DNA from: Prevotella sp.
Lineage (GTDB): Bacteria; Bacteroidota; Bacteroidia; Bacteroidales; Bacteroidaceae
Assembly (NCBI GenBank): GCA_017449495.1
Contig: JAFTFO010000031.1
Span: forward strand, 1 to 43,283
Reading direction: 5' to 3'
DNA: 43,283 bases
Shown here: positions 10,999 through 43,145 of the stretch, piece by piece
How positions within the stretch are numbered: the first letter of the stretch is position 1
Layout: the number at the start of each line of letters is the position of its first letter
Translations under genes and position numbers: made by a program
Notes under the pieces: generated by a model
What the model saw: the letters and a program-made list of their open reading frames with translations, nothing else
Database searches by the model: none
What the model was told of the DNA's origin: nothing

Positions 10999-12063
10999 TC
11001 ATTGCTTGGTGGCGATACGCATAAAGATGGGGTAGTGGTCGGAATAGCTAAGCTCCTTCTTATAATAGGTTAGCCCCTCCATAGCCTTATCATGGAATAT
11101 GTAGTCGATGCGTACTTTCTTATTGCCGCCTCGGAAAGTGTACATAAACCCACTGCCGCACTCCTTGAATCCATCAACCTTGTCGCCAAGCATCGTGTTA
11201 TAGACATACGAATAAGGCACGTCGTTGAAGTCACCGCATACGATGACCGGAGCCTCACTCTCCCTCATGTCCATTGCCAGCAAATTGGCCTGTCCGGAGC
11301 GGGCAATCATACCGATGGTATAATTACCGTAGATGGCGTTGATTAAAGCATTACCCTGAACTTCCACCCCTTTGTTTTGCAACTTGGCTGCTCTGTGAAG
11401 CATACTGTTGATACCTGTTGTCTCAAGGTGGACATTATAGATACGGTAGATGTTGTCATTGATATTCACCTCTACCCACATGGCGCTGTTACTCGTCTGC
11501 TCAAAGTCGATATTCTTCTTGTTGACGATGGGATAGCGACTGTAAATAACCATGTCGTTATTGCCGAAGGCGGAGTGGGGGAAGTAGTCCTTGTAATAGT
11601 CGGAGTTCTTCTTATCGCCGCTAAAGTCGTTGTACTCTTGGAAGCAGACGATATCTACTTTTTGCCGCTTCATTTCCGACAGGATGTCTTGTGCAATGAA
11701 ACCTGTTGTCTCGCCAGAAAAGCGTGCTACGTTATAGGTGGCCAGCTTGATGCCCGATTTGATGTCTGCCTTTTCGTCGGTAGAACCGAACTGCAGTATT
11801 GTTCCCACATAGGGTATACAGCAGAGGAGGGTGATCAGTGGCATCAGGGCCCAATGGAAGCGAAGCCTGATAATCCAGTAGATTAGGAATACGAAGTTAC
11901 CAATGATAAGCAGTGGCAGGGCATAGACAAGCATGGCGCGAGCCGTGTTGCCAGCAGGCTGGACGTCACCTCCAAACAATCCCACGAATGTGAATATCAT
12001 CAGTAGGAAGGAGATGATAAGCATCATGAAAGAAAAGTATTTCTGTACTGCAAGCTTTCCCAT
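10999..12063 (-). CDS. Membrane-anchored endonuclease/exonuclease/phosphatase family protein
   Basis: The 354-aa protein has three predicted N-terminal membrane helices (about 10-32, 42-64 and 70-92) and then an EEP catalytic domain. The metal/catalytic motifs are present: CFQEY (Glu143), NVHLET, CGDFND, IDYIFH and the terminal SDHYP. The substrate could be nucleic acid, a phosphoinositide-like lipid or another phosphodiester; sequence does not tell. With three helices the domain probably faces the periplasm or the membrane surface. It follows the histidine kinase by 29 bp and is probably co-transcribed with it. Confidence 0.9.
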   Translation of the reverse strand: MGKLAVQKYFSFMMLIISFLLMIFTFVGLFGGDVQPAGNTARAMLVYALPLLIIGNFVFLIYWIIRLRFHWALMPLITLLCCIPYVGTILQFGSTDEKADIKSGIKLATYNVARFSGETTGFIAQDILSEMKRQKVDIVCFQEYNDFSGDKKNSDYYKDYFPHSAFGNNDMVIYSRYPIVNKKNIDFEQTSNSAMWVEVNINDNIYRIYNVHLETTGINSMLHRAAKLQNKGVEVQGNALINAIYGNYTIGMIARSGQANLLAMDMRESEAPVIVCGDFNDVPYSYVYNTMLGDKVDGFKECGSGFMYTFRGGNKKVRIDYIFHDKAMEGLTYYKKELSYSDHYPIFMRIATKQ

Positions 12064-12092
12064 ATATGATGTATTTGATTTATATATACGGA

Positions 12093-13352
12093 TTAATCGT
12101 CTTCTCCGAGGTATTTCTTGACAATCTCAATGAGGTTCTCAACCTTGAAGGGCTTGGCCATGAAGTCATCGCAGCCTGCTTCTTTGGCATTGCGGATGGT
12201 CTCTTCAAAGGGAAAGGCACTGAGAGCGATGACTGGAGTTGTCGACACTTCCTTGATAATGCGGGTAGCGTCGAGGCCATTCATGCCTGGCATACGGATG
12301 TCCATCAGGATCAAGTCTGGCTTCTCGTCCTCATTGATGGTCACGGCTTCGATGCCGTTATGGGCCCGCAGCAGCTTGTAGCGCTTCTGGAGCACAATCT
12401 TCACCAGTTCGTAGTTGTGGTCCTCGTCCTCTGCTACGAGGATGGTCTTGGTATTTAGGTCGTCAGTACGACCACTGATACGGATGGTACGGACACTCGT
12501 CGTCGTGGTCTCCTTGTTCTGGTCCACACCGCCGATACTACCTTCGAAGGGCATGGTGAAGGTGAACTTGGAACCCTTGCCGACTTCAGACTCTACCGAC
12601 AGCGTGCCACCCATCTTCTCTACAATGATTTTACAGAGGGGCAGTCCCAGGCCATATCCATTATTACTCTTCTCGGCATCACGAGATACGTATGTCTCAA
12701 AGATATGCTCAAGGTCCTCTTTCGCAATGCCACTACCAGTATCACTGACGAACATCTCGATCGTTTGTGCTTCGTCCAATACTTTATAGCCGTAGGCGAT
12801 AGTACCTTGACTGGTGTGTTTCAGCGAGTTACTGATGAGATTAGAGAATACCTGAATAAGTCTGTTGGCATCGGTATTCATCGTTACATTCATGGTTGGC
12901 TCGCTCCACTCCAACTTTACCGAGTCTGGGCAACGGAACTTAAAGAGGTTCATGATGCTTGTGCAGAGTTGATTAAGGTCGGTGGGATTCTTCTTCATGA
13001 CAATCTCTCCCGATTCAACACGCGACAAGTCGAGGATTTCATTGACGAGACTCTGTAGGCGGTTGTTGTTGCTTTCGATGATCTCGAAGTATTTCATACG
13101 GTCTTCCTGGGAGTCGGTCTCAATAATGACTCTTGAAAAACCCTCAATAGCGTTTAGTGGCGTGCGTATTTCATGGCTCATGTTGGCCAGGAAAAGGGAC
13201 TTCATCTTACTCGCTTTCTCAGCTTTCTGGGCCTTTTCCTCGTATTCCTTCAGCTTCTTGTTTGCTATAGCAAGCTGCTCGTTGGCAAGCATCAACTTAC
13301 GGTTGACATCAGCAAACTTCTGCATTAATATCTCTCTTTCGTCTCTTTCCAT
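12093..13352 (-). CDS. Soluble hybrid histidine kinase with C-terminal receiver
   Basis: The 419-aa protein starts with a coiled coil (about 10-48, rich in Lys/Glu/Ala). A HisKA domain follows, with phospho-acceptor His60 in NMSHEIRTPLN, then a HATPase domain with GTGIGxx-like DTGSGIAKED and GYGLGLPLCK, and a receiver with Asp351 in LMDIRMPG. There is no membrane segment, PAS domain or DNA-binding output. It may therefore sense in the cytoplasm through its coiled coil or a partner and signal through another protein. The start at 13352 is supported because a start at 13382 would lie inside the -7 element. Confidence 0.92.
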   Translation of the reverse strand: MERDEREILMQKFADVNRKLMLANEQLAIANKKLKEYEEKAQKAEKASKMKSLFLANMSHEIRTPLNAIEGFSRVIIETDSQEDRMKYFEIIESNNNRLQSLVNEILDLSRVESGEIVMKKNPTDLNQLCTSIMNLFKFRCPDSVKLEWSEPTMNVTMNTDANRLIQVFSNLISNSLKHTSQGTIAYGYKVLDEAQTIEMFVSDTGSGIAKEDLEHIFETYVSRDAEKSNNGYGLGLPLCKIIVEKMGGTLSVESEVGKGSKFTFTMPFEGSIGGVDQNKETTTTSVRTIRISGRTDDLNTKTILVAEDEDHNYELVKIVLQKRYKLLRAHNGIEAVTINEDEKPDLILMDIRMPGMNGLDATRIIKEVSTTPVIALSAFPFEETIRNAKEAGCDDFMAKPFKVENLIEIVKKYLGEDD

Positions 13353-19698: not shown

Positions 19699-22161
19699 TT
19701 AGATGTTAGCGATAGACATGATATTGGCAAACACGCCGGCAGCCGTTACGGCAGCACCTGCGCCATAGCCTTGGATCAGCATCGGGTACTCCTTATAGCG
19801 CTCGGTAGTGAGCAGCACGATATTGTTCGAGCCCTCCAGACCGTAGAACGGGTGTCCGTAAGGTACCTCCTTCAGGGCGACATTGGTCTTGCCGTTCTCC
19901 ATCGTCGCCACGAAGCGCCAGCGTTTGTTCTCTGCCTCCAGCACCTTGCGACGGGCCTCGAAGTCGGCATCAAGCTCTGGCAACTTGGCCCAGAAGTCCT
20001 CGATGCTACCCTCGAAGTAGCTGTCGGGTACGAAGAGGTGCTTCTCCACGTCGTCCTGCTCCACCTTGTAGCCGGCCTCACGGGTAAGGATCACCAACTT
20101 GCGGATGACGTCGGTACCACTGAGGTCGATGCGCGGATCGGGCTCTGAATAGCGCTGTTCCTTGGCGCGACGCACCGTTTCAGAGAAGGGTACATCGGCT
20201 GCTATCTCGTTGAAGATAAAGTTCAGCGTACCAGAGAGGATGGCTTCAATCTTCAGAATCTTGTCGCCCGAGTTGCAGAGGTCGTTGATCGTGCCGATAA
20301 TCGGCAGTCCGGCACCCACATTGGTCTCGTAGCGGAACCATACTCCACGGTCGCGAGCAGTCTGCTTCAACTTCAGATAACTATCGTAGTCGCTGGATGC
20401 AGCAATCTTGTTGGCTGCAACCACTGATATGTTGTGCTCCAAGAAGGTCTGGTAAAGGGATGCGATCTGACGGCTGGCCGTACAGTCGACGAAGACGCTG
20501 TTGAAGATATTCATCTTGACGATCTCGTCCCGCATGTGGTCGGTATTGGCTGCAAAGCTCGCACGGAGTATCTTCTCATAGTTGTCGAGGTCGATGCCGT
20601 CGCGGTCGAGCACGAAGTTATCGACATCCGAGATGCCCACCACGTTCAGTTTCAGGCGCTTCGTCTGCATGAGGTACTGCTGCTGGGTGCGGATCTGCTC
20701 GAGCAGCATGCCGCCCACGGTACCGATGCCACAGATAAAGATGTTAAGCACCTTGTATTCAGAGAGGAAGAACGAGTCGTGGAGTACGTTGAGCGACTTG
20801 CGCAGGAAGCGGCCGTCGACGACGAACGAGATGTTCGTCTCGGAGGCTCCCTGGGCACAGGCAATCACAGAGATACCTGAGCGGCCAAGTGTGCCGAACA
20901 GCTTACCGGCGATACCTGGCGTCTGCTTCATGTTCTCACCAACGATGGCAATCGTGGCCAGGCCACTCTCCACCTGCATGGGGAACATGGCGCCCGTCTC
21001 GATCTCCTTGGCGAACTCGGCGTTCAGCACCTCGGCTGCAGCCTCGGCATCCTCGTCGCGGACACCGATAGAGGTGGAGTTCTCAGAAGAGGCCTGCGAC
21101 ACCATGAACACGGAGATGCCCTTGTTGGCCAGTGTGGTGAAGATTCGACGGTTCACACCGATCACACCCACCATCGAGAGACCCGTCACCGTAATCAGTG
21201 AGGTGCCCTTGATGCTTGAGATACCCTTGATGGGCTTGTTGTCATCCTCAATCTTCTCTTTGATCAAGGTTCCTGGGTGTTCAGGGTTGAAGGTGTTCTT
21301 TACCTTGATTGGTATATTCTTGACACAGACGGGATAGATAGTCGGTGGGTAGATGACCTTGGCACCGAAGTTACAGAGTTCCATCGCCTCCACGTAAGAG
21401 AGCTCATTGATGGTGTAGGCGCTCTTGATCACCTTCGGGTCGGCAGTCATGAAGCCATCCACGTCGGTCCATATCTCTAAGATCTCAGCATCTAATGTTG
21501 CTGCCAGGATAGAGGCGGTGTAATCGGAACCGCCACGGCCCAGATTCGTGGTCTCGTGGGTGTCTTTGTCTCTGGCAATAAAGCCCGGCACCACATAGAT
21601 CTGGTTGTTGTTATTCGGATTCTGGTCGTTGACCAATTCCTTAAAGACCTCCGTCACCAGTTGCTTCGTCAGTTCTGTGTCTAACACATGCTTGCCTTGC
21701 TTCCTCTCGGTGCGGATGAAGTCACGGCTGTTCATACGGACACCGTTCTTGACCATCGCTGCCACGATGTGCGAACTGAGGCGCTCACCGTAAGAGACGA
21801 TGGTGTCCTCAGTCTTTTTCGACAGGTCGTGGATCAGGTACACGCCGTAGAAGATGCTCTTCAGCTGATCGAAGAGCTGGTCAACGTTGTTGAATAAGTC
21901 TACGCGTTTCTTGTCGTCAGTGATGATAGTGTCTATCATCTGATGGTGGCGCTTGACCATCGCGTCGAACTCGTCGCGATAGTGCTCGTCTCCCTGTTTA
22001 GCCATCTGCGACGTGGCAATCAGTTTGTCGGTGATGCCGTCGAGGGCGCTTACTACTACGATGACAGGTTGCGTCCGAGCCTCTGCCTCCACAATTTTCT
22101 TTAAGCTTAGAATGCTTTTTACGGAACCTACGGACGTTCCGCCGAATTTCATTACTTTCAT
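19699..22161 (-). CDS. thrA: Bifunctional aspartokinase/homoserine dehydrogenase
   Basis: The 820-aa fusion does the first and third steps from aspartate to threonine. The aspartokinase begins MKVMKFGGTSVGSV, with the substrate loop GRGGSDYTAS. Two ACT-type segments follow (about 315-465), giving feedback control. The homoserine dehydrogenase begins near IFICGIGTVGGML (about 475) and has NVGAGLPIIGTI and the PRIDLSGTDVIRK region. The start is the ATG at 22161; an upstream TTG would add four residues with no family support. Its promoter is at 22229-22236, with a leader of about 60 nt that shows no run of Thr codons. Confidence 0.96.
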   Translation of the reverse strand: MKVMKFGGTSVGSVKSILSLKKIVEAEARTQPVIVVVSALDGITDKLIATSQMAKQGDEHYRDEFDAMVKRHHQMIDTIITDDKKRVDLFNNVDQLFDQLKSIFYGVYLIHDLSKKTEDTIVSYGERLSSHIVAAMVKNGVRMNSRDFIRTERKQGKHVLDTELTKQLVTEVFKELVNDQNPNNNNQIYVVPGFIARDKDTHETTNLGRGGSDYTASILAATLDAEILEIWTDVDGFMTADPKVIKSAYTINELSYVEAMELCNFGAKVIYPPTIYPVCVKNIPIKVKNTFNPEHPGTLIKEKIEDDNKPIKGISSIKGTSLITVTGLSMVGVIGVNRRIFTTLANKGISVFMVSQASSENSTSIGVRDEDAEAAAEVLNAEFAKEIETGAMFPMQVESGLATIAIVGENMKQTPGIAGKLFGTLGRSGISVIACAQGASETNISFVVDGRFLRKSLNVLHDSFFLSEYKVLNIFICGIGTVGGMLLEQIRTQQQYLMQTKRLKLNVVGISDVDNFVLDRDGIDLDNYEKILRASFAANTDHMRDEIVKMNIFNSVFVDCTASRQIASLYQTFLEHNISVVAANKIAASSDYDSYLKLKQTARDRGVWFRYETNVGAGLPIIGTINDLCNSGDKILKIEAILSGTLNFIFNEIAADVPFSETVRRAKEQRYSEPDPRIDLSGTDVIRKLVILTREAGYKVEQDDVEKHLFVPDSYFEGSIEDFWAKLPELDADFEARRKVLEAENKRWRFVATMENGKTNVALKEVPYGHPFYGLEGSNNIVLLTTERYKEYPMLIQGYGAGAAVTAAGVFANIMSIANI

Positions 22162-22228
22162 ATTCCTATGCAATTTGTCTTACCATCGGTACCCCTTCTA
22201 CGAATGGGGGACTTCTCCAATGGCGGTG

Positions 22229-22236
22229 CAAAGGTA
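22229..22236 (-). promoter_or_regulatory. Promoter -7 element of the thr operon
   Basis: TACCTTTG on the minus strand, followed by C, 67 bp before the thrA ATG. I found no threonine-rich leader peptide in the transcript start. Confidence 0.65.
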
Positions 22237-22261
22237 ATGGAATTAGTCAAAATAACAAAAT

Positions 22262-22285
22262 AAATCGCGAACTTTTTCGCGATTT
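22262..22285 (-). terminator. Terminator of the secreted protein gene
   Basis: Perfect stem AAATCGCGAA / TTCGCGATTT with a 4-nt loop, 8 bp after the stop at 22294. It is followed on the minus strand by the T-rich run ATTTTGTTATTTTG. Confidence 0.85.
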
Positions 22286-22293
22286 ATCTTGAT

Positions 22294-22809
22294 TTACTTG
22301 CGTCCGGCGTTGCTGTGGGGATTGATTCGCTGCTGTTTTCTCAACTCTTTGCCAGCATAAGGACGGGCAGGCGGAGAGTAACTCTTCCTCGGATTGGCCG
22401 GTCCCCTGTAGTCCTTATAGTGGCTGGGCTGAGTGGAATACATGCGGCCCCTGTCGGTGTAATAGTTGTAGATGCTGAAGCTCCACACATTGCGAGAGCT
22501 GCTCATCGGGTGATAGAAGTACTTCGTCTTCTTGTAGAGGTGATACTGGTAGTCCGAGAGCACGAACCGCATGTCCATATCACGACGGGACTGGCAGGCG
22601 CTGAACGGCTGGCCCTGTATAGCCACGGCTATCACAAAGTCGTAGTTGATCTCGTACACATTATTGATTTGTGCAGTAGAAAGCCCCAGCTCGTAGGCCA
22701 TCTTGTCGGTGAGGAACAAGGCATGCTCACGTGCCTCATTGAAAGTCATTGCTGCGGCAGATGTGACTATTGTCACCATCATTGCCAGGGTCATCATGAT
22801 CTTTTTCAT
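22294..22809 (-). CDS. Secreted protein with a helical N-terminal region
   Basis: The 171-aa protein has a signal peptide (MKKIMMTLAMMVTIVTSAAA) with likely cleavage after SAAA. The mature N-terminus, ALFLTDKMAYELGLSTAQIN, has the look of Spy/CpxP-like (LTxxQ) helical segments, in which LSTAQ stands for the LTxxQ motif. The rest is Tyr/Arg-rich and the tail is basic and Pro-rich. It may be a periplasmic stress or surface protein, but this is a weak resemblance. It has its own promoter and terminator and is a monocistron. Confidence 0.75.
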   Translation of the reverse strand: MKKIMMTLAMMVTIVTSAAAMTFNEAREHALFLTDKMAYELGLSTAQINNVYEINYDFVIAVAIQGQPFSACQSRRDMDMRFVLSDYQYHLYKKTKYFYHPMSSSRNVWSFSIYNYYTDRGRMYSTQPSHYKDYRGPANPRKSYSPPARPYAGKELRKQQRINPHSNAGRK

Positions 22810-22859
22810 AATCGTCGCTGTTTTAATGATTCAACATATTGTTTCTGATTCTTCTGGTG

Positions 22860-22867
22860 CAAAGATA
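22860..22867 (-). promoter_or_regulatory. Promoter -7 element of the secreted helical protein
   Basis: TATCTTTG on the minus strand, followed by C, 50 bp before the ATG at 22809. Confidence 0.65.
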
Positions 22868-22971
22868 GGGATAAAAATCCATATTGACAAGTGTTTTTCC
22901 CTATTTTGAGGGTGGAAAATCCCTAAATAGCCATAATTTTGGCTTTTTTATAAAAAAAAGACTCCCTACAA

Positions 22972-23002
22972 TTTGATATTATTAAAAAAATGAGTAATTT
23001 TG
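22972..23002 (+). promoter_or_regulatory. Promoter of the FkbH/ACP/MBOAT operon
   Basis: TTTG at 22972-22975 and TAATTTTG at 22995-23002 are separated by 19 bp, which is ideal spacing. The first ATG at 23030 is 27 bp further on. No other clear promoter is visible until 30688, so one transcript may cover seven genes. Confidence 0.75.
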
Positions 23003-23029: not shown

Positions 23030-24769
23030 ATGCTTCAATATAAGGACTTAAAGAAGAATTTAAAACAAGACCTCTCCGGACTTCCCTCTGTCAAGGTGGC
23101 GCTTATCGGCGATACGGCTACCCAGTTCCTTGCTACTGCGATATGTGGCATGGGCGTTGAACGAGGGTACCGCATCGACTTGTTTGAGGCTGAGTACAAT
23201 CAAGTGGAGAGGCAGTTCCTCGATCCCACAAGTGATTTGTACACTTTCGATGCAGATATGATTGTGGTGTTCCAGTCTACGCATAAGTTGGGCGAGCATC
23301 ACAGCCTGCTTTCCACTGAGCAACAGGCATCAGTGGCCGAGGAGCGTCTGTCGTTCGTGGCGTCTATCTGTGAGAATCCGGCATTGGCTGATAAGAAGAT
23401 TATCTATTTCAATTACTCGGAGATCGAGGATACCGTCTTTGGTAGTTATGCCAACAAGGTGACGTCATCACTGTCGTATCAGGTCAGGAAACTTAACTTT
23501 GAGTTGATGAACCTCTCGCAGCAGTATCCTAACCTCTTTATTTGTGACTTGGCTGGCCTTCAGAACAAGTTCGGACGCGACTTCATGTTTGCTCCTAACG
23601 TCTACGTCAGTACAGAGATGATTTTAAGCGTCGATGCCCTGCCATACGTGGCATCAAGAGTTCTGGATGTCATTTGTGCCATTAAAGGACAGTTCAAGAA
23701 ATGCCTGATCCTCGACCTTGACAATACGGTGTGGGGAGGGGTCATCGGTGATGATGGCCTGGAAGGTATCCAACTGGGGCACGGACTTGGTATCGGCAAA
23801 GCCTTTACGGAGTTCCAGATGTGGGTGAAGAAGCTGAAGCAGCGCGGAATCATTATCTGTGTCGCCTCAAAGAATAACGAGGATACGGCTAAGGAACCGT
23901 TCGAGAAACACCCAGATATGGTGCTGAAACTGGACGATATTGCCGTGTTTCAGGCTAACTGGGAAACGAAGGTCGACAATATCCGAACCATCCAGAGCAT
24001 CCTGAATATTGGCTTCGACTCGATGGTTTTCCTGGATGACAACCCTTTCGAGCGGAATATGGTTCGTGAGAACATTCAGGGTATAACAGTTCCTGAACTG
24101 CCAGAAGACCCGGGAGAGTATCTGGAATATCTCTATTCGCTGAACCTGTTCGAGACGGCCAGCTATAGCAATGCCGATAAGGATAGGACCAAGCAGTACC
24201 AGGTGGAAGCCAAGCGTGTGTCGCTTTCTAAGACCTTTACCAACGAGGCCGACTTCCTGAAGTCGTTGAATATGGTATCTACGGTCAGTGGCTTTACGAA
24301 GTTCAACACACCTCGTGTGGCTCAGCTTTCCCAGCGCAGCAACCAGTTCAACCTGAGGACTATCCGCTATACAGAGGCTGATATCACGGCTTTAGCTGAG
24401 GATTCGAATGTGATCGACCTCAGTTTTACCCTTGAGGATAAGTTCGGCGACAACGGTTTAATAGCTGTCATTATCATGAAGCGGCAGGATGCGGAAACGC
24501 TTTTCGTAGACACATGGTTTATGAGCTGTCGTGTACTGAAGCGTGGCATGGAGAACTTTACTCTCAATACGATGGTGGAGCGTGCCAAGGCTGCAGGCTA
24601 TAAGAAGATTATTGGCGAATATCTGCCTACGCCCAAGAACAAGATGGTGGAGAATCACTATACTGGTTTGGGCTTCTCGAAGGTGGAGAATGCGGAAACA
24701 GCTCGTTATGAGTTGGACGTTGAGGCTTATCAGCCAAGAGAATGTTATATTGAGACAAAAACAGTATGA
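23030..24769 (+). CDS. FkbH-like HAD-IIIC/GNAT protein (ACP loading)
   Basis: The 579-aa protein has three parts. An N-terminal SGNH-like segment (about 1-220, VALIGDTATQFLATAI) is followed by a HAD-IIIC phosphatase-like domain (about 230-390, LDLDNTVWGGVIGDDG and FLDDNPFER) and a C-terminal GNAT-type domain (about 400-560). FkbH proteins take 1,3-bisphosphoglycerate, dephosphorylate it and load a D-glyceryl group on an acyl carrier protein as a thioester. An ACP gene lies two genes downstream, so the same job is likely here. The start is the ATG at 23030; an earlier in-frame start would overlap the promoter. The stop overlaps the next ATG by 4 bp. Confidence 0.9.
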   Translation: MLQYKDLKKNLKQDLSGLPSVKVALIGDTATQFLATAICGMGVERGYRIDLFEAEYNQVERQFLDPTSDLYTFDADMIVVFQSTHKLGEHHSLLSTEQQASVAEERLSFVASICENPALADKKIIYFNYSEIEDTVFGSYANKVTSSLSYQVRKLNFELMNLSQQYPNLFICDLAGLQNKFGRDFMFAPNVYVSTEMILSVDALPYVASRVLDVICAIKGQFKKCLILDLDNTVWGGVIGDDGLEGIQLGHGLGIGKAFTEFQMWVKKLKQRGIIICVASKNNEDTAKEPFEKHPDMVLKLDDIAVFQANWETKVDNIRTIQSILNIGFDSMVFLDDNPFERNMVRENIQGITVPELPEDPGEYLEYLYSLNLFETASYSNADKDRTKQYQVEAKRVSLSKTFTNEADFLKSLNMVSTVSGFTKFNTPRVAQLSQRSNQFNLRTIRYTEADITALAEDSNVIDLSFTLEDKFGDNGLIAVIIMKRQDAETLFVDTWFMSCRVLKRGMENFTLNTMVERAKAAGYKKIIGEYLPTPKNKMVENHYTGLGFSKVENAETARYELDVEAYQPRECYIETKTV

Positions 24770-25167
24770 CTTATACAACAGATCATGTAGGCTATCTGAC
24801 GGGAGATATCAGTTCTACGGCCAAAGAGTTTGAAAGACTTGGTTATGTTGCAGGTGAAGTCATTAACGACGATACGCAACGGACGAAAATATGCTTTCTG
24901 ACTAAGGCTGGAGAGGTGCGCATTGAACTTGTAGAACCTTATGAGGATAACAAGACCATGCAGAAGATGCTGACTAAACGGGGCGTCTCTCCCTATCATA
25001 TGTGCTATGAGGTTGACGATGTGGAAGTGGAGTATGACAAACTGATTCAGGAAGACTGGACGGCATTGTTCAAGCCTGTGGCTGCGCCTGCATTCGACAA
25101 TCGGAAGATATGCTATTTCTGGAACTCAGAGATAGGCTTTATTGAGTTAGTGAATCGTGAAAAGTAA
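24766..25167 (+). CDS. VOC (glyoxalase-fold) protein
   Basis: The 133-aa protein is a two-module vicinal-oxygen-chelate fold like methylmalonyl-CoA epimerase. Candidate metal ligands are His7 (DHVGYL), Glu54 (RIELVEP), His78 (YHMCYEV) and Glu127 (GFIELVN). It is translationally coupled to the FkbH gene through the overlap ATGA and lies 20 bp before the ACP gene. It might epimerise, isomerise or otherwise process the acyl group loaded on the ACP. This is inference from context, since VOC enzymes are diverse. Confidence 0.88.
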   Translation: MTYTTDHVGYLTGDISSTAKEFERLGYVAGEVINDDTQRTKICFLTKAGEVRIELVEPYEDNKTMQKMLTKRGVSPYHMCYEVDDVEVEYDKLIQEDWTALFKPVAAPAFDNRKICYFWNSEIGFIELVNREK

Positions 25168-25187
25168 CATATAATATAGAAAGAAAA

Positions 25188-25427
25188 ATGGAAAGACAAG
25201 AGATTTTTGAGAAACTGAATGAGATTTTTACCGATGTGCTTGATCTTGATGAGTGCAATCTGACTGATGAGACAAGTGCTAACGACATTGAAGAGTGGGA
25301 TTCTCTGAGTCACATTCAACTCATCGTGGCCATTGAGAAGGCCTTTAAGATCAAGTTCACCTCTCTTGAGATTATGAAGTGGAATAATGTCGGAGAGATG
25401 GTAGACTCGATGATGGAGAAGCTTTAG
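25188..25427 (+). CDS. Acyl carrier protein
   Basis: The 79-aa protein is acidic and helical. Its phosphopantetheine attachment site is Ser39 in EEWDSLSHIQL. The usual DSL motif is kept. Unlike fatty-acid ACPs it has EEWDSLSH in place of GADSLD, which is typical of ACPs in secondary or dedicated pathways. It lies between the FkbH/VOC pair and a membrane acyltransferase, so it probably carries the acyl group to the membrane, like DltC does. The next gene starts one base after its stop. Confidence 0.94.
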   Translation: MERQEIFEKLNEIFTDVLDLDECNLTDETSANDIEEWDSLSHIQLIVAIEKAFKIKFTSLEIMKWNNVGEMVDSMMEKL

Positions 25428-25428
25428 G

Positions 25429-26892
25429 ATGGTTGTCAACTCAGTAAGATTCCTTTTCTTCTTCATAGTAGTATTCACCATCTACTATCTGCCGTTTACG
25501 AAGAAGTACCCTCGCCGTCAGAACATCTGGCTGCTGTTGGCGAGCTATTTCTTCTATGGTGTTGTTGACTGGAAGATGGTTGTGATACTGTTAGGTGCAA
25601 CCGCTGTGTTCTATGTCCTTGGTCTGTGGCTGAAATCTGTGATGCAGAAAGGTTACACAAAGCAAGCATCCCATCTGACCACTCTCGGTGTTACCCTAGG
25701 AATCTGCCTATTGCTCTATTTTAAATATCTGAATTTCTTCGGAGAGTCGATTGCCGAATTACTCAATGCCATAGGATTGAAGGCTACGTGGACCACTCTG
25801 AATATCATCGTGCCTGTCGGTGTGAGCTTCTTCACCTTCAAACTGATCAGTTATCTGATAGAGATTCATCGCGAACATATCGAACCGAGTAGGGACATGG
25901 TGGAGTTTGCCACCTATATCGCTTTCTTCCCGACACTGCTCTCTGGTCCTATAGACCGTCCCAATACCTTTATTCCTCAGCTGCGGAAATCTCATGCGCT
26001 GGATTATGCACAGGCTGTAGATGGTTGTCGACAGATTCTTTGGGGTATGTTCACAAAGATATGTATTGCTGACCATCTGGCTCTGGTGACCGATTATGTA
26101 TGGGCCGACTATTCCCATCAATCAGGTTCAACGCTTCTGATCTGGACGCTGCTTTATACGATGCAGATATATACAGACTTCGACGGTTATTCTAACATGG
26201 CAATCGGTGTAGGTAAGATTCTTGGTTTCAACATCACTCGAAACTTCAACCATCCGTTGCTGGCTCGTAACATCGCCGAGTTCTGGCGTAACTGGCACAT
26301 CTCGCTTACCTCTTGGATCACCGACTATGTCTTCATGCCGCTGAACATTGCCTTCCGTAACATGGGTAATTGGGGCGTGCTTTTGGCTGTGACCATCAAT
26401 ATCGTACTCATCGGTCTTTGGCACGGATCCAACTGGACTTTCGGCCTCTTCGGTCTTTACCATGCCATGCTCTATATACCTTTGGTACTCTCGGGAGCAT
26501 TTGGTAAGAACAAGAAACTACGTCCCAATGATTATGGTCTACCAAAGATGAAAGACTTCTCGAAGATGGTATTGAACTACGTGCTGGTGTCGCTTGGCTT
26601 TATTGTCTTCTATGCCAGCAGTGTGACCGATGCTTTCCGCTTCTTCAGGGGCATCGTGTCTACATCTCTATTCTCTATGCCAAGCCTGCCTCTCAAGAAG
26701 GCGACCATGGTTTTCATGCTGATTGTGCTGATTCTTGAGTGGACGACGAGGAAGAAGGAACATCCGCTTCAACTCCCTTACGACGGTATCTTCCGTTATA
26801 CCGCTGTCCGCTATGCTCTTTACGCAGGCATTGGCCTGATGTTGTTCTTCTTTGCTGGTGAGGTAGAAACGTTTATCTATTTTAAGTTCTGA
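25429..26892 (+). CDS. MBOAT-family membrane O-acyltransferase
   Basis: The 487-aa protein has about 10 or more membrane helices and the MBOAT core: FFTFKLISYLIE, FPTLLSGPIDRP, YTDFDGYSNMAIG and FWRNWHISLTSWITDYVF. The catalytic His332 lies in LIGLWHGSNWTFG. It belongs to the AlgI/DltB/PatA branch, which moves acyl groups across or onto envelope glycans. It follows the ACP gene by one base and precedes an SGNH gene by 4 bp, the same order as DltC-DltB-DltD partners. The acceptor is not identifiable. Confidence 0.95.
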   Translation: MVVNSVRFLFFFIVVFTIYYLPFTKKYPRRQNIWLLLASYFFYGVVDWKMVVILLGATAVFYVLGLWLKSVMQKGYTKQASHLTTLGVTLGICLLLYFKYLNFFGESIAELLNAIGLKATWTTLNIIVPVGVSFFTFKLISYLIEIHREHIEPSRDMVEFATYIAFFPTLLSGPIDRPNTFIPQLRKSHALDYAQAVDGCRQILWGMFTKICIADHLALVTDYVWADYSHQSGSTLLIWTLLYTMQIYTDFDGYSNMAIGVGKILGFNITRNFNHPLLARNIAEFWRNWHISLTSWITDYVFMPLNIAFRNMGNWGVLLAVTINIVLIGLWHGSNWTFGLFGLYHAMLYIPLVLSGAFGKNKKLRPNDYGLPKMKDFSKMVLNYVLVSLGFIVFYASSVTDAFRFFRGIVSTSLFSMPSLPLKKATMVFMLIVLILEWTTRKKEHPLQLPYDGIFRYTAVRYALYAGIGLMLFFFAGEVETFIYFKF

Positions 26893-26896
26893 TGTC

Positions 26897-27934
26897 ATGA
26901 AGAAGTTCCTCATCAAACTATCATATACGGTACTGCCAGTGTTCCTATTGCTTTTCGGACTGACGGCATACCTCAATTTATATATCAGACCGCAGGCTAC
27001 TGGCGATTTGGGCCGTCTTGCCTTTATCATTATTGGTGAGGATTATGGTCAGCGCATTGAACAGAATGAGTTGAAAGATACATTATTTAATAAGGTTCGC
27101 GAGACAGAAGATTTGAAAAACATCCATGTGAACGTACTGACGATAGGCGACTCCTTCTCTCAACAAGAGCATGCGGGCTATCAGAACTATATGGCTCAAG
27201 AAAGTCTGACCGTGGTCAATACCAGACGCGACCTATACGATAATCCTATTCAGTATGCATGGAATTTGTTGGACGCAGGCATTGTCGACTCTACCAACAT
27301 TGATGTAATGGTTGTTGAGGTAGGTGAGCGCGATTTCCCTATTCGTATTGACAATTTCAGAACTGACAAGGTGGAGATAGGAGAGCCAGATTCTTCTGAT
27401 GAGAGTGGAGAGGAGAACGTGTGGGATATCAGTCAATGGTCGCTGCTCCGAACGCGTGATTTCCTAATGTATCGTTATGCAGGTCGAAATCCTGTCTACG
27501 ATGTTGAACTCGATCGTGATTTCTTTGATAGTAATGATCCCCGTAGACTATATTTCTATTGTGCAGATGTCTTAAATGGCATGGACATAGATGAGTCTAT
27601 ACGTCCGAAGGTCAAGGAAGTGTTTAATTTGCTGACAACGAAGGCTCATGAACGTGGCTTTGCTCTTATCCTAATGTTACCTGTCGACAAATATGACCTC
27701 TATCAGGACTATATTGTCAACAACCCATACGATCATCCCAAACGAATCAACGAAGAAGTGCGTGAGTTGTTAGGAGATATCCCCGAGGTGATGTTGTGTA
27801 AATTCACCTTGCTGCCCCTACTGGAGCGCGGAGAGAAAGATGTGTTCTTGTTCGACAATAGCCATTGGAGCTATAAAGGTTCTAAAGCGGTGGGTATTGA
27901 ACTTTCAAAGAGAGTTAAAATGTTAAATAAATGA
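26897..27934 (+). CDS. SGNH-fold AlgJ/DltD-like acyl-transfer partner
   Basis: The 345-aa protein has an N-terminal membrane anchor (about 8-30), so its main domain faces the periplasm. The SGNH catalytic set is visible: GDSFS with Ser86 (block I), and D-x-x-H with Asp320 and His323 in FDNSHWSYKG (block V). Such proteins work with MBOAT partners to pass acyl groups to polysaccharides or to remove them. It starts 4 bp after the MBOAT gene. The family is related to AlgJ/AlgX and DltD. A truncated SGNH gene of similar type is at the right edge of the window. Confidence 0.85.
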   Translation: MKKFLIKLSYTVLPVFLLLFGLTAYLNLYIRPQATGDLGRLAFIIIGEDYGQRIEQNELKDTLFNKVRETEDLKNIHVNVLTIGDSFSQQEHAGYQNYMAQESLTVVNTRRDLYDNPIQYAWNLLDAGIVDSTNIDVMVVEVGERDFPIRIDNFRTDKVEIGEPDSSDESGEENVWDISQWSLLRTRDFLMYRYAGRNPVYDVELDRDFFDSNDPRRLYFYCADVLNGMDIDESIRPKVKEVFNLLTTKAHERGFALILMLPVDKYDLYQDYIVNNPYDHPKRINEEVRELLGDIPEVMLCKFTLLPLLERGEKDVFLFDNSHWSYKGSKAVGIELSKRVKMLNK

Positions 27935-27962
27935 TTGTTTTCTAAGATAATAGCATTAAATT

Positions 27963-29042
27963 ATGAATACAAATTCACAATCTGCAAATATTACAACAAC
28001 GAAGAAGGAGAGAATAATAGCATTTGATGTTTTGAGATTTCTGGCTGCTTATGGAGTTATTCTATACCATGCTCCCGGCGGTAATATGTGGTTCGAAGGA
28101 TTTCCGTTATTAGGATGGAATATTACTTGTACTTATTTTTCTCTTGTGAGATGGTGTGTACCTACATTTGTTATGATATCCGGTGCATTGTTTCTTGACA
28201 TAAATAAACAGTTGAGTGTTAAACGCCTATATTCTAAAAATGTTGTCCGTATAGTTTACGCTTATCTTTTTTGGTCACTTGTTTTTGTCATGATAACTCC
28301 AGAATTGAGGACAAATATAAAAGATGTCATAATTGGTGTTTTTAGGGGGCCATTATATTTGTGGTTTCTGAAGATGTTGTTTGGATTATATGTCATTATC
28401 CCATTGTTGAGAGAAATTGTTAGAAATAAAAAAGTGGAAGAGTATTTCTTGTTATTTACGTTTGTGACAGTAAATGTAATTCCATTTTGTATTGAAATTA
28501 TTGGCCGTATAAGTGGACCTGTTATGGAATTGTTAGTCGATTCTATTCGGGAATCTAATTTGGATAAGGTTATGGGATTTAGTGGATATTTTGTACTTGG
28601 TCATTATTTGCATAATAGGATATTTAGCGATAAACAGGCTCATATAATATATTTATTAGCCATTATCGGTTTCCTATGTGTCGTAACTGGAACATATACC
28701 TATTCTCATGTTATTAATTACCCAGATAACTTTATTTTAGATATGATGACACCATTCAATGTCTTTGAGACAGTGGCTGTATTCGTCTTTGCCAAAAGGC
28801 ATTTCATAAAGTATTCTCCATCTGTTACCCGTTGGATTTTAGATCTTTCTGCTTGTAGCTTTGGTATTTATTTAGTGCATCCCATAATACTGGGGAAATT
28901 GCGGCCGTTTTTTGATTTTGATCCCAATTCATATTGGCCATTATTGGGTATTCCCCTTTTAACTTTGATTGTATTTATTGTAGCTTATGCGATAATAAAA
29001 GTAATGAAACTTATACCTATTCTTGGGAAATATGTGATGTAA
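27963..29042 (+). CDS. Acyltransferase-3 family membrane protein
   Basis: The 359-aa protein is polytopic with about 10 helices. It starts with the acyltransferase-3 signature RIIAFDVLRFLAAYGVILYHA, in which the histidine is the likely catalytic residue; WWFLKxLFGLY-like LWFLKMLFGLY follows, then FGIYLVHPIILG near the end. This family (OafA/WecH/YiaH) O-acetylates envelope glycans using acetyl-CoA. Base composition is much more AT-rich than in its neighbours, which suggests recent acquisition. It lies 28 bp after the SGNH gene and 6 bp before the next gene, so it is in the same transcript. It may add a second modification to the same glycan. Confidence 0.9.
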   Translation: MNTNSQSANITTTKKERIIAFDVLRFLAAYGVILYHAPGGNMWFEGFPLLGWNITCTYFSLVRWCVPTFVMISGALFLDINKQLSVKRLYSKNVVRIVYAYLFWSLVFVMITPELRTNIKDVIIGVFRGPLYLWFLKMLFGLYVIIPLLREIVRNKKVEEYFLLFTFVTVNVIPFCIEIIGRISGPVMELLVDSIRESNLDKVMGFSGYFVLGHYLHNRIFSDKQAHIIYLLAIIGFLCVVTGTYTYSHVINYPDNFILDMMTPFNVFETVAVFVFAKRHFIKYSPSVTRWILDLSACSFGIYLVHPIILGKLRPFFDFDPNSYWPLLGIPLLTLIVFIVAYAIIKVMKLIPILGKYVM

Positions 29043-29048
29043 GAAGTT

Positions 29049-39971: not shown

Positions 39972-42380
39972 TTATGTGAACAGACTGCCGATCTGGTAGA
40001 CTGCCATGCTGACTACCCATGCCACCGCTGTTGTATAGACCGCCGCGAAGCATGCCCAGCGCCAAGAGCCCGTCTCATTCTTGATGGCGGCAATGGTGGC
40101 GATGCAGGGGAAGTAGAGTAATATAAATATAAGGTACGCGTAAGCAGCCAGTGGGGTGATACCCTCGGAGAGCATCTGCTGGCGCAGACGCGTATATTTC
40201 TCATTATCGTCGCTGAAGCTGTCGTCATCGCTAAAGGAGTCGTCACCTGAATAGAGTACGCCGATAGTCGAGGCAACAATCTCCTTAGCGCCCACACCTG
40301 CTATCAGGCTCACGTCGAGCTTCCAGTTGAAGCCCTGGAGGGTGTAAATAGGCTCTATGGCTTTGCCCATCCGTCCGATATAGCTCTGCTCCTGTTGCTC
40401 CTGCTGCGACAGGGCTTCGTTGTGGGGGAAGTACTCGAGTGCCCACACGATGATGGAGGCCACGAGGATGATACCACCCATCTTCTTCAGATACTCCTTG
40501 CCTTTCTCCCATGTATGGCGCCAGATGGCCTTAGCGGTCGGCCAGCGGTAAGGGGGCAGCTCCATCACGAAAGGTGTGTCCTCACCCTTAATGACCAGCG
40601 AGGAGAACAGCTTGCTGATGATGACCGACATTAGGATGCCGATGGCATAGAGCGACAGCAACACCCACGAACGATACTGGAGAGAGAAGAACGTGCCGGC
40701 AATCATAATATAAATAGGTAAGCGGGCAGAACAGCTCATAAACGGCAGGATCATCATCGTGATAATCCTTGATCGCCGACTCTCGATAGTACGTGTTGCC
40801 ATTACAGCAGGCACATTACAGCCAAATCCCATGATGAGTGGGATGAAAGACTTACCGTGGAGTCCCATCTTGTGCATCAGCTTGTCCATGATGAAGGCAG
40901 CGCGAGCCATGTAGCCCGAGTCCTCCATCAGGGAGATGAAGAAATAGAGGATGAGGATCTGCGGCAGGAACACGATCACGCTGCCCACACCGCCGATGAC
41001 ACCATCTACGAGCATCGCCTTCAGGGGACCGTCAGGCATCGTCACACTGACCTTGTCACCCAGCCACCCGACAAACCATTCAATCCAGTCCATCGGATAC
41101 TGACCTAAGGAGAAGGTGGTCTCAAACATCACGTAGAGCACCAGGAAGAAGATGGGGAAGCCGAAATACTTGTGTGAGAGTATCCAGTCGATGCTGTGGG
41201 TGACACGATAGGTGTCCTCCTTCGTGCCTGTCTTGAACTCTGCCTCCTTCAGTGCACCGTTGATGAAACCGTATTTGGCATCCATGATGGCCGTCTCGGA
41301 GTCATCGCCCGTCTCTTCTTTAACACGGGCGGAAGCCCTGTCGCGGGCATTCGTCAGCCGGTGGAAGTCATCCATGCGCTTTTCTCCTGCCAGATGCTTG
41401 CCTAAGTAGTCGAGCACCTGACTGTCGTGTTCCAGCAGTTTCAGTGAAAGGTATCGGGTGGAGTAGTGCTGGGTGATATGCTCATCTGCCTTCAGGTATT
41501 TCTGTATCTGACTGATGCCGTCCTCTATCTCATGGCCGTAGTTGATGTGCAGATGGCGGAAAGACTTGCTGGTACCTTCGTACACTTGGATGACGGCACG
41601 GAAGAGTTCTTTTACGCCTGTACCGTTTTTAAAGGATGTGGGAACCATCGGCACACCGAAGAGAGTGCTTAAGGTGTCGAGGTTCACAGAGTCGCCGCGT
41701 CGCTCAAACTCATCAAACATGTTCAAAGAACAGACCATTCGGATATCCATGTCGACGAGTTGGGTGGTCAGATAGAGGTTGCGCTCCAAGTTCGAGGCGT
41801 CAATCACATTGATCACCACGTCAGGCATCTGCTCCGTCAGATGTTCCCTCACATAGAGTTCCTCTGGGGAATAGCAGGAGAGTGAGTAGGTGCCGGGCAG
41901 GTCGGTGAGGTTGAACTCATAGCCAAACATCGAGGCGTGGGCTTCTGTGGCATCAACGGTGACACCTGAGTAGTTGCCCACATGGCCGTGGGCCCCGGAG
42001 GCAAAGTTGAAGAGCGATGTCTTGCCGCAGTTGGGGTTACCCACGATAGCCACGTTGATCGTACGACGCTCCTTCATGGCCTCATGACGGATATAGTCAT
42101 CCTCGTGGTTGTGGGGATCGTCAGAGACTGCAAAGTGCGTGGCTTCGATAGGGGTGTCGGCAGAAACCACCTCGATGTTGTCTGCCTCTTGGTGGCGTAG
42201 ACTCACTTCATAGCCCATCAGCTTATATTTTACAGGGTCTTGCAGAGGCGCATTCAGCAGCACCTCTACTTCCTTCCCCTTGATGAATCCCATCTCGATG
42301 ATACGCTTGCGGAATCCACCATGACCTAACACCTTGACGATGATGCCTTTCTCGCCTGTCTTCAGTTCAGATAGTTTCAT
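39972..42380 (-). CDS. feoB: Ferrous iron transporter, FeoA-FeoB fusion
   Basis: The 802-aa membrane protein imports Fe2+. Residues 1-75 are a FeoA (SH3-like) domain that is usually a separate gene. The FeoB G domain follows, with G1 GNPNCGKTSL (114-123), G3 LTDLPGTYSL and G4 NVIDASNLERN. The membrane part (about 390-800) has about 8-10 helices and the gate motif PFMSCSARLPIY. The segment DDSFSDDDSFSDDNEK near the end repeats DDSFS twice. It is a monocistron with its own promoter and terminator. FeoC is absent. Confidence 0.96.
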   Translation of the reverse strand: MKLSELKTGEKGIIVKVLGHGGFRKRIIEMGFIKGKEVEVLLNAPLQDPVKYKLMGYEVSLRHQEADNIEVVSADTPIEATHFAVSDDPHNHEDDYIRHEAMKERRTINVAIVGNPNCGKTSLFNFASGAHGHVGNYSGVTVDATEAHASMFGYEFNLTDLPGTYSLSCYSPEELYVREHLTEQMPDVVINVIDASNLERNLYLTTQLVDMDIRMVCSLNMFDEFERRGDSVNLDTLSTLFGVPMVPTSFKNGTGVKELFRAVIQVYEGTSKSFRHLHINYGHEIEDGISQIQKYLKADEHITQHYSTRYLSLKLLEHDSQVLDYLGKHLAGEKRMDDFHRLTNARDRASARVKEETGDDSETAIMDAKYGFINGALKEAEFKTGTKEDTYRVTHSIDWILSHKYFGFPIFFLVLYVMFETTFSLGQYPMDWIEWFVGWLGDKVSVTMPDGPLKAMLVDGVIGGVGSVIVFLPQILILYFFISLMEDSGYMARAAFIMDKLMHKMGLHGKSFIPLIMGFGCNVPAVMATRTIESRRSRIITMMILPFMSCSARLPIYIMIAGTFFSLQYRSWVLLSLYAIGILMSVIISKLFSSLVIKGEDTPFVMELPPYRWPTAKAIWRHTWEKGKEYLKKMGGIILVASIIVWALEYFPHNEALSQQEQQEQSYIGRMGKAIEPIYTLQGFNWKLDVSLIAGVGAKEIVASTIGVLYSGDDSFSDDDSFSDDNEKYTRLRQQMLSEGITPLAAYAYLIFILLYFPCIATIAAIKNETGSWRWACFAAVYTTAVAWVVSMAVYQIGSLFT

Positions 42381-42521: not shown

Positions 42522-43145
42522 TCATTTCTGCTGCATAGAACCTTTTAGCCTCTGGCTTAAATCACTGCCCACTCTTTTCGAGAATAATTCTGTTCCCTTT
42601 GTGTTCAGGTGAATGTAATCCTTAAACAACGTCGTATCATTACCGAACAGATCCATATAATTAAGAACTGTCAATTGGCTATCTTGATTGATGCTATCAA
42701 TCAGATTCCAAAATCTATCCATGTCAAAATAAGATGCAGACACTTCCTTCAGAATCGGTGCGCATACCAATATCAACTTGATATTGTTGGTAGAACATTC
42801 TTCGATGAATTGCTTGAATAACGAAATATTCTCTGGTGTATGTTCGAACTTCTGCTTGCCAGCAATCAAGCCACATCTGTGGAATGTTTGTTCTGGAGGA
42901 ATTGTATCGCCAGATTCATCAATATTATCAAACTCATTTATTACTTTATTTAGTTTTCCTGCATATCTGACGAGTCTGAAGTTGTCTGCATATGACAATT
43001 CAGGAGTGATTTCTTTTAGGAAGTTGAAATTTTCCCGATTAATGTATGGACACATGTCTATACTGTATTTTGGCATCACATAATCTAAGAAGGCCCATGG
43101 CCCCACCTCTTGTATGATATAGTCAGGTCGTATGTTCTGTGACCA
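42522..43145 (-). pseudogene. 5'-truncated SGNH-like (AlgX/DltD-type) gene
   Basis: The open frame runs from the stop at 42522 back to a TGG at 43143, where it meets an in-frame TAG. The sequence before the first possible GTG start at 43106 (RPDYIIQEVGPWAFLDY) looks like true coding continuation, so the N-terminal half is missing. The C-terminal D-x-x-H site, with a following KG (DYIHLNTKG), is present. The GDS block is absent. It resembles the SGNH gene at 26897, but is AT-rich and not an obvious copy. The missing half seems to have been lost by an insertion or rearrangement at about 43146. Confidence 0.65.

Follow-up and report, generated by a model that had tools for sequence, protein, structure and literature searches.

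We analysed a stretch of 43,283 nucleotides (hereafter the window; Prevotella sp., GenBank assembly GCA_017449495.1, contig JAFTFO010000031.1) around a cassette of six genes, all on the forward strand between positions 23030 and 29042. In order they encode an FkbH-type protein, a VOC metalloenzyme, a stand-alone acyl carrier protein (ACP), an MBOAT acyltransferase, an SGNH acyltransferase and an acyltransferase-3 (AT3) (Table 1), with successive spacings of -4, 20, 1, 4 and 28 bp. The coordinates, order and family names given by an initial annotation made from the sequence were correct by Pfam and TIGR matches, and the catalytic residues checked in the cassette proteins are intact. The window corresponds to contig C42 in a draft genome of 47 contigs (2.24 Mb, 68% complete), and a single FkbH was found in that genome; the nearest FkbH loci are labelled as uncultured Prevotellaceae or Prevotella, and the host is a rumen Prevotella-like bacterium. 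We give a probability of about 65% to the reading, based on sequence comparison, that the cassette forms a relay, supplied from glycolysis, for ACP-dependent O-acylation of the surface.

Table 1. Features of the cassette and its surroundings (positions in the window).
Feature	Position	Strand	Match or remark
thrA-like gene	19702-22173	-	flanks the cassette upstream
Bacteroidota-type promoter-like site, TTTG-N19-TAATTTTG	22972-23002	+	found by eye; ends 27 bp 5' of the FkbH ATG
FkbH-type glyceryl loader (HAD-IIIC), predicted	23030-24769	+	TIGR01686, PF21211, PDB 3SLR
VOC metalloenzyme; predicted target C2 of the ACP-bound acyl	24766-25167	+	PF13669, 65.2 bits
Stand-alone ACP	25188-25427	+	PF00550, 35.0 bits; phosphopantetheine Ser39 (25302-25304) in DSL
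MBOAT transmembrane acyltransferase	25429-26892	+	PF03062, 40.7 bits; His332 (WHG); FIYFKF with Tyr484 (26878-26880)
Membrane-anchored SGNH acyltransferase	26897-27934	+	PF16822; Ser86, Asp320, His323
Acyltransferase-3 (AT3)	27963-29042	+	PF01757, 111.3 bits
FAD-dependent gene	from 29049	+	flanks the cassette downstream
feoB	39975-42380	-	downstream of the partial SGNH-like frame
SGNH-like C-terminal part without the Ser half	42525-43145	-	upstream of feoB

The FkbH protein scored 299.8 bits against TIGR01686 (curated cut-off 146.65), 291.8 bits against the FkbH_N domain PF21211 and, over residues 3-382, 601 bits against PDB 3SLR, the uncharacterized protein BF1531. It has the HAD motif DxDxT (DLDNTVW, Asp229 at 23714-23716), and its Cys277 (23858-23860) lies three residues before the serine of SKN; we take the cysteine ahead of SKN to be catalytic. 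Among 122 non-redundant FkbH proteins this cysteine was found at -3 in 48, at -1 in 36, at both places in 18 and at neither in nine, and the motif was not found in 11. Eight of the nine proteins without either cysteine came from loci of the class sample (see below) where no MBOAT was found. From these sequences it is possible that the catalytic cysteine has changed place, or that there are two loader variants. The DSx serine of the ACP was present in 114 of 115 cases in the recount of distinct loci. An FkbH and a stand-alone ACP probably yield glyceryl-ACP in the glycerate-utilisation genes of tetronate and methoxymalonyl polyketides, which the excerpt of PMC7489565 words as likely, and glyceryl loading by FkbH is also worded as likely for aeruginosin clusters in the excerpt of PMC10143770.

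The MBOAT ends in FIYFKF, which fits the acyl-shuttle motif FXYXXF. This motif ends all 94 distinct FkbH-linked MBOATs, of which 92 have WHG, and all 13 further MBOAT copies in FkbH loci. The window MBOAT falls within a group of 74 rows, 73 of them ACP-linked, in a quick tree of a sample picked by FkbH. The SGNH protein matched PF16822 (ALGX) with 28.8 bits (cut-off 26.5); Ser86 and His323 are invariant in a 42-row alignment, and Asp320 is present in at least 90% of its rows. Its structure model (predicted local distance difference test, pLDDT, 81.7) has an N-terminal helix at residues 2-28, and its first Foldseek match was PatB (7TLV, E 6e-4), the matches being SGNH-type with none far above the rest. 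The protein thus has an anchored SGNH fold with Ser-Asp-His. PF04914 and PF16822 were too weak to define the partners of the MBOATs (ALGX matched 10 of 42), so these were identified from their position, from profiles of our own and from catalytic residues; a simple GDS pattern missed most of them.

The MBOAT and SGNH proteins carry the residues needed by a relay of the Dlt or Pat type, and to this extent the initial annotation was right to call the operon Dlt-like. In the excerpt of PMC12148441, the Dlt pathway combines a carrier-bound acyl group, a membrane-crossing MBOAT, an acyl-tyrosine FXYXXF shuttle and an SGNH transferase. But the cassette is not a Dlt system, and we rejected its membership on four counts: no DltA adenylating family was found among the six operon genes (the rest of the genome was not searched for DltA), the MBOAT stayed under the DltB cut-off, the SGNH protein had no match to DltD (PF04914) at E 0.01, and a DltX gene cannot fit within the operon, whose genes are never more than 28 bp apart. 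These failures make it very improbable that a true Dlt system puts an amino acid on a teichoic-like polymer here, despite the same logic of carrier, MBOAT and SGNH and a DltB model match of 180 bits.

To follow the cassette across genomes, we used the best 80 of 283 FkbH loci in the species genome collection, found by a search that needs exact 8-residue matches. The tally profiles were built from those same 80 loci, to which the window's own locus (L001) does not belong, and matches on both strands were counted up to 6 kb from FkbH. The ACP was found in 77 of the 80 loci, the MBOAT in 73, both in 71, and the SGNH in 69; VOC was found in 27 (26 without a weak match), MaoC in 22, SDR in 20, a methyltransferase in six and transketolase-N in five. 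In a sample of the family, FkbH was above the cut-off in 24 of 399 genomes, and the 24 loci, window included, had an ACP in 22 cases and both ACP and MBOAT in 15 (11 of the 16 with full 6 kb flanks). An MBOAT is expected within 6 kb by chance in around 0.7% of cases (56 MBOAT matches in 41 family genomes, 2.8 Mb per genome assumed), against which the observed 15 of 24 has a nominal binomial p of around 1e-26, kinship not corrected. The FkbH-ACP-MBOAT grouping is not due to chance.

In a sample of the class, FkbH was above the cut-off in 30 of 295 genomes. The tally took 29 of the 34 genomes with a match, excluding the window's own locus and four sub-threshold genomes, and found an ACP in 20 of the 29 loci. 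The initial annotation had expected the neighbours to be conserved together, and this held for FkbH, ACP, MBOAT and SGNH among the nearest loci and in the family, but the class sample had ACP and MBOAT together in only eight loci. Hence, the cassette is unevenly distributed, and partners other than the MBOAT occur with FkbH-ACP. Short contigs hold several of the sampled loci, and the samples overlap: L158 belongs to both class and family samples, and three family loci (L209, L210 and L213) and one class locus (L151) are also among the 80. The 134 loci included five pairs with the same FkbH core, leaving 129 distinct loci for a recount, in which weak matches to VOC (L029 and L141, 28 and 31 bits), MaoC (L166, 32 bits) and SDR (L157, 76 bits) were left out.

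The cassette is not restricted to Bacteroidota, since FkbH-ACP-MBOAT sets also occur on alphaproteobacterial plasmids. Outside the phylum, an FkbH relative was found on 117 plasmid records (40 Sinorhizobium), of which five were examined. Rhodobacteraceae SC52 has the order ACP, FkbH, MBOAT, a protein of 358 amino acids, VOC and hexapeptide, whereas two Sinorhizobium meliloti records have MBOAT, a protein of 409 amino acids (annotated as TonB-dependent receptor), ACP and FkbH, one of them about 7 kb or less from RkpR. The proteins of 358 and 409 amino acids matched no Pfam family, so they are putative SGNH partners by position. Niveispirillum has FkbH, ACP, WcbI and SDR, and an unannotated Subdoligranulum record has FkbH-ACP with MaoC- and SDR-like frames, with no MBOAT found in its 15.7 kb.

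The genes around this core are exchangeable. VOC was found in 35 and MaoC in 29 of the 129 distinct loci, and no locus had both. For the 92 distinct cassettes that include ACP and MBOAT, the counts were 27 and 24, again with no overlap (nominal Fisher p 6e-5, kinship not corrected), and SDR accompanied MaoC in 21 of 24 cassettes versus VOC in one of 27. The D-N-P-H type motif is present in 28 of 29 MaoC and YxxxK in 31 of 31 SDR proteins. By gene content, VOC is optional, one of several interchangeable genes, and the core is FkbH-ACP-MBOAT-SGNH. Of the full set of families that had been proposed as conserved, this core stands, but VOC can be absent or swapped and AT3 is not part of it. We also labelled the loci as VOC, MaoC or neither (88 loci, reduced by similarity from 95 usable ones, two weak VOC labels included). 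The label changed 26 times on a quick FkbH tree, and the MBOAT and ACP phylogenies, with 27 and 29 changes on quick trees, were no better as predictors of tailoring; they therefore give no hint that the MBOAT discriminates between the acids.

The same exchange is seen at close range in six relatives with the same thrA gene upstream, two of which have the FAD gene downstream, the other stretches ending earlier or lacking a match. Families in this group were assigned by cluster from one scanned member each. FkbH is 91-94% identical, ACP 90-100% and MBOAT 84-94%. VOC is 79-91% identical in five of the six; in the remaining one, L002, it is replaced by MaoC and SDR. SGNH (59-87%) is more variable, and AT3 the most variable: 34-40% identical in four relatives and not found in two, for which reason we rejected it as a core part. 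It is probably an accessory gene for a second (acetyl) decoration. Beside thrA, a second MBOAT-SGNH pair directly follows the first in L002 (6450-8926) and L015 (13874-16464). Some MaoC cassettes (L034 at 11097-12939, L035, L026 and L055) have a two-subunit transketolase-like pair (PF00456, PF02779/PF02780), whose place there suggests that it lengthens the carrier-bound acid by two carbons.

The VOC protein has a full metal ligand set in alignment with solved relatives (His7, Glu54, His78 and Glu127, which we presume to be the ligands). It scored 44.0 bits against the methylmalonyl-CoA epimerase model TIGR03081, below the cut-off of 114.95, and its structure model resembles Ni glyoxalase I (the best fold match, Ni-bound) and methylmalonyl-CoA epimerases. 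These are enzymes acting at the alpha carbon of acyl thioesters, and we counted the modelled likeness in favour of the relay. The nearest solved relative is a Clostridium acetobutylicum protein deposited as glyoxalase I (PDB 3HDP/2QH0), a label that may merit re-examination as a carrier-protein enzyme. Of 11 plasmid records with VOC homologues, two were examined; they show no annotated FkbH in the stretch but have a carrier: in Paludibaculum the ACP adjoins, and in Rahnella a carrier-protein gene lies 3.2 kb away in the same cluster. The ACP-VOC pair of the Paludibaculum plasmid (L231, 3819-4485) lies near exosortase and polysaccharide deacetylase genes.

In the proposed relay, FkbH would move D-glyceryl from 1,3-bisphosphoglycerate to the phosphopantetheine of the ACP, by analogy with FkbH of polyketide pathways. 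VOC would then work at C2 of this 2-hydroxyacyl thioester by way of an enediolate held on the metal; conversion of D- to L-glyceryl is the likeliest such reaction, a tentative assignment to which we give less than an even chance. By analogy with PatA and DltX, the MBOAT would take the acyl group through the inner membrane and onto its own Tyr484 in the C-terminal FXYXXF, whose place on the MBOAT makes DltX unnecessary. The SGNH protein, judging by its family and neighbours, would take the acyl group on Ser86 and then esterify an envelope glycan, while AT3 would be an accessory acetyl donor, separate from the relay. In related cassettes the VOC step would be replaced by MaoC and SDR (from glyceryl-ACP through the enol of pyruvyl-ACP to lactyl-ACP) or by a methyltransferase, or would be absent.

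A lactyl or pyruvyl group might instead pass through the same relay. VOC would then be an eliminase, the C3 hydroxyl being lost from the enediolate to give pyruvyl-ACP, or an ACP-dependent glyoxalase I making lactyl-ACP from methylglyoxal and holo-ACP. The His-Glu-His-Glu ligands, the Ni-bound glyoxalase I as best fold match and the position of VOC, in the place of the dehydratase MaoC of other cassettes, would agree with this. We hold it to be unlikely: a pyruvyl intermediate would be left unreduced, as SDR accompanies VOC in one of 27 cassettes, and the glyoxalase route would make FkbH superfluous.

Taking the cassettes together, we suggest, with a confidence just short of even odds, a modular and horizontally moving system in which the fixed FkbH-ACP-MBOAT core makes a carrier-bound C3 acid from 1,3-bisphosphoglycerate and swapped tailoring genes (VOC, MaoC with SDR, methyltransferase or split transketolase) set the acid that the SGNH partner places on the surface glycan (D- or L-glyceryl, lactyl, O-methylglyceryl or longer ones). 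If so, close relatives would differ in surface chemistry through swaps of one or two genes.

The acceptor is probably a surface polysaccharide, i.e., O-antigen, capsule or exopolysaccharide, as pointed to by the glycosyltransferases, polysaccharide deacetylases and AT3 among the neighbours. We scanned a random 110 of 317 neighbour genes of cassette loci outside the thrA group (first 25 of 109 Pfam families, no control set). The commonest families were the glycosyltransferases PF00534 (10) and PF00535 (four), polysaccharide deacetylase (eight) and AT3 (five), while O-antigen ligase, Glf, DegT aminotransferase and PGA_cap each occurred twice.

Several observations weigh against the relay. FXYXXF also ends all 31 MBOATs without FkbH in the stretch (most stretches around 3.6 kb), so it is no proof of an ACP donor and we rejected it as such. 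No SGNH partner was found by own profiles near the MBOAT in 13 MBOAT loci, though it was in most others, and no glycan gene adjoins the cassette within the window. The MBOAT scored 180.3 bits against the DltB equivalog model TIGR04091, whose cut-off is 375. VOC lacks the second catalytic Glu of methylmalonyl-CoA epimerase; the residue aligned with it, which precedes Gln38, is variable, and this weakens the name 'epimerase'. In the class sample, no MBOAT was found within 6 kb in 21 of 29 FkbH loci and no ACP in nine, several of these loci being on short contigs. Ten scanned neighbours of loci without MBOAT comprised a hexapeptide transferase, an AAC(3)-like N-acyltransferase, two AT3, a KAS III, a glycosyltransferase, an aldo/keto reductase and three without family; because other acyltransferases occur there, FkbH-ACP alone does not imply surface esters. 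Finally, FkbH and MBOAT co-occur with separate roles in aeruginosin biosynthesis (PMC10143770, excerpt).

In another reading, FkbH, VOC and ACP would work together in the cytoplasm, either acylating a sugar nucleotide at N or O or serving a small natural product. The MBOAT-SGNH pair would draw on acetyl-CoA, and the two sets would be neighbours only through shared polysaccharide loci. In favour of this reading, FkbH-ACP without MBOAT adjoins hexapeptide, AAC(3)-like, AT3 or KAS III transferases. It also agrees with published excerpts in which FkbH serves polyketides and peptides (PMC7489565, PMC10143770), occurs with an MBOAT in one aeruginosin cluster in separate roles (PMC10143770), and PatA uses acetyl-CoA (PMC12148441). 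We nevertheless consider it improbable, since a single base pair separates the ACP and MBOAT genes in the window, FkbH-ACP-MBOAT is kept (in 71 of the 80 loci) while other genes swap, the six-gene operon has no sugar-nucleotide or polyketide gene, and the window MBOAT belongs to the largely ACP-linked group (with the sampling and tree given above).

The surroundings of the cassette fit an islet inserted between the thrA-like and FAD-dependent genes. Both flanking proteins were searched in 30 genomes, own genome included. The two genes are divergent neighbours in five (G588, G690, G692, G699 and G701), with around 140-253 bp between matched parts; they are 1.4 kb apart in G697, 2.8 kb in G695, and 53 bp apart on one strand in G495. 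In the remaining 21 of the 30 genomes, one match is absent or the two fall on separate contigs. The G+C content is 0.33-0.48 in the cassette versus 0.49-0.58 in the flanks (except for 0.45 at 22000-22999), which, with the empty sites in relatives, is consistent with an acquired block. The FAD-dependent gene begins 6 bp after AT3 (29043-29048), compared with the 140-253 bp to its divergent neighbour at the five empty sites, and through the insertion this gene may have come under control of the cassette promoter. The promoter-like site consists of TTTG (22972-22975), a 19 bp spacer and TAATTTTG (22995-23002), letters confirmed in the sequence, and resembles the Bacteroidota promoter consensus. 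The ATG at 23030 is a likelier FkbH start than the longer TTG at 23000, because the latter lies inside this site.

Elsewhere in the window, the SGNH-like fragment upstream of feoB may be the relic of a second cassette, since in related loci (L011, L012, L014, L019, L022 and L025) feoB is immediately preceded by an MBOAT-SGNH pair. The same genome has another MBOAT-SGNH pair (L178, C3:68000-82000) with no FkbH or ACP found in 14 kb. Its MBOAT lies inside the ACP-linked clade, and the pair may share a carrier in trans.

The cassette resembles Dlt (DltA, DltC, DltX, DltB, DltD) in its dedicated carrier, MBOAT, tyrosine FXYXXF shuttle and SGNH protein (PMC12148441, excerpt), but differs in having FkbH for DltA, the motif fused to the MBOAT instead of a DltX, and a Gram-negative host. 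With PatA/PatB and AlgI/AlgX it has in common an MBOAT with its own C-terminal FXYXXF and a separate anchored SGNH protein, PatB being the first Foldseek match. Non-Dlt MBOAT/SGNH pathways, according to the same excerpt, lack a dedicated carrier protein, evidently through use of acyl-CoA (PMC12148441), whereas the cassette carries a predicted loader and a predicted dedicated carrier whose gene is adjacent and conserved. So widespread a cassette would be a genomic counter-example in Gram-negative bacteria. The FkbH and stand-alone ACP are like those of tetronate and methoxymalonyl polyketide genes (PMC7489565, excerpt), but the operon has no polyketide synthase and the acyl group would pass to MBOAT-SGNH. 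Aeruginosin clusters (suomilide, varlaxin) have a glycerate FkbH domain, methylation and, in one cluster, an MBOAT; there, FkbH serves to load a module of a peptide synthetase, the MBOAT targets a different moiety, and the excerpt describes no surface relay (PMC10143770). In searches of open-licence PubMed Central papers, we found no description of FkbH feeding MBOAT/SGNH in glycan acylation; among the papers found, PMC10143770 alone had FkbH, MBOAT and ACP, with FkbH and MBOAT in separate roles. A Dlt-like route in which another enzyme probably loads the carrier, as the sequences suggest, was not found described there.

If true, this would couple surface decoration directly to a high-energy phosphate from glycolysis. 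The reading would also propose a function for many domain-only FkbH, VOC, MaoC and SDR genes in Bacteroidota and rhizobia, and yield clear chemical predictions for glycan analysis. The flagellar glycan of Campylobacter jejuni carries di-O-methylglyceric acid, and gellan is an exopolysaccharide with an L-glyceryl ester. The predicted product would be like gellan in having a glyceryl ester on a bacterial exopolysaccharide, and no donor pathway for the gellan glyceryl group turned up in our search of open-licence PubMed Central papers. The C. jejuni flagellar glycan locus, in the excerpt of PMC7099621, shares with the cassette an FkbH-domain gene in a surface-glycan setting (cj1302, with cj1301 annotated as an epimerase), and differs from it in being flagellar.

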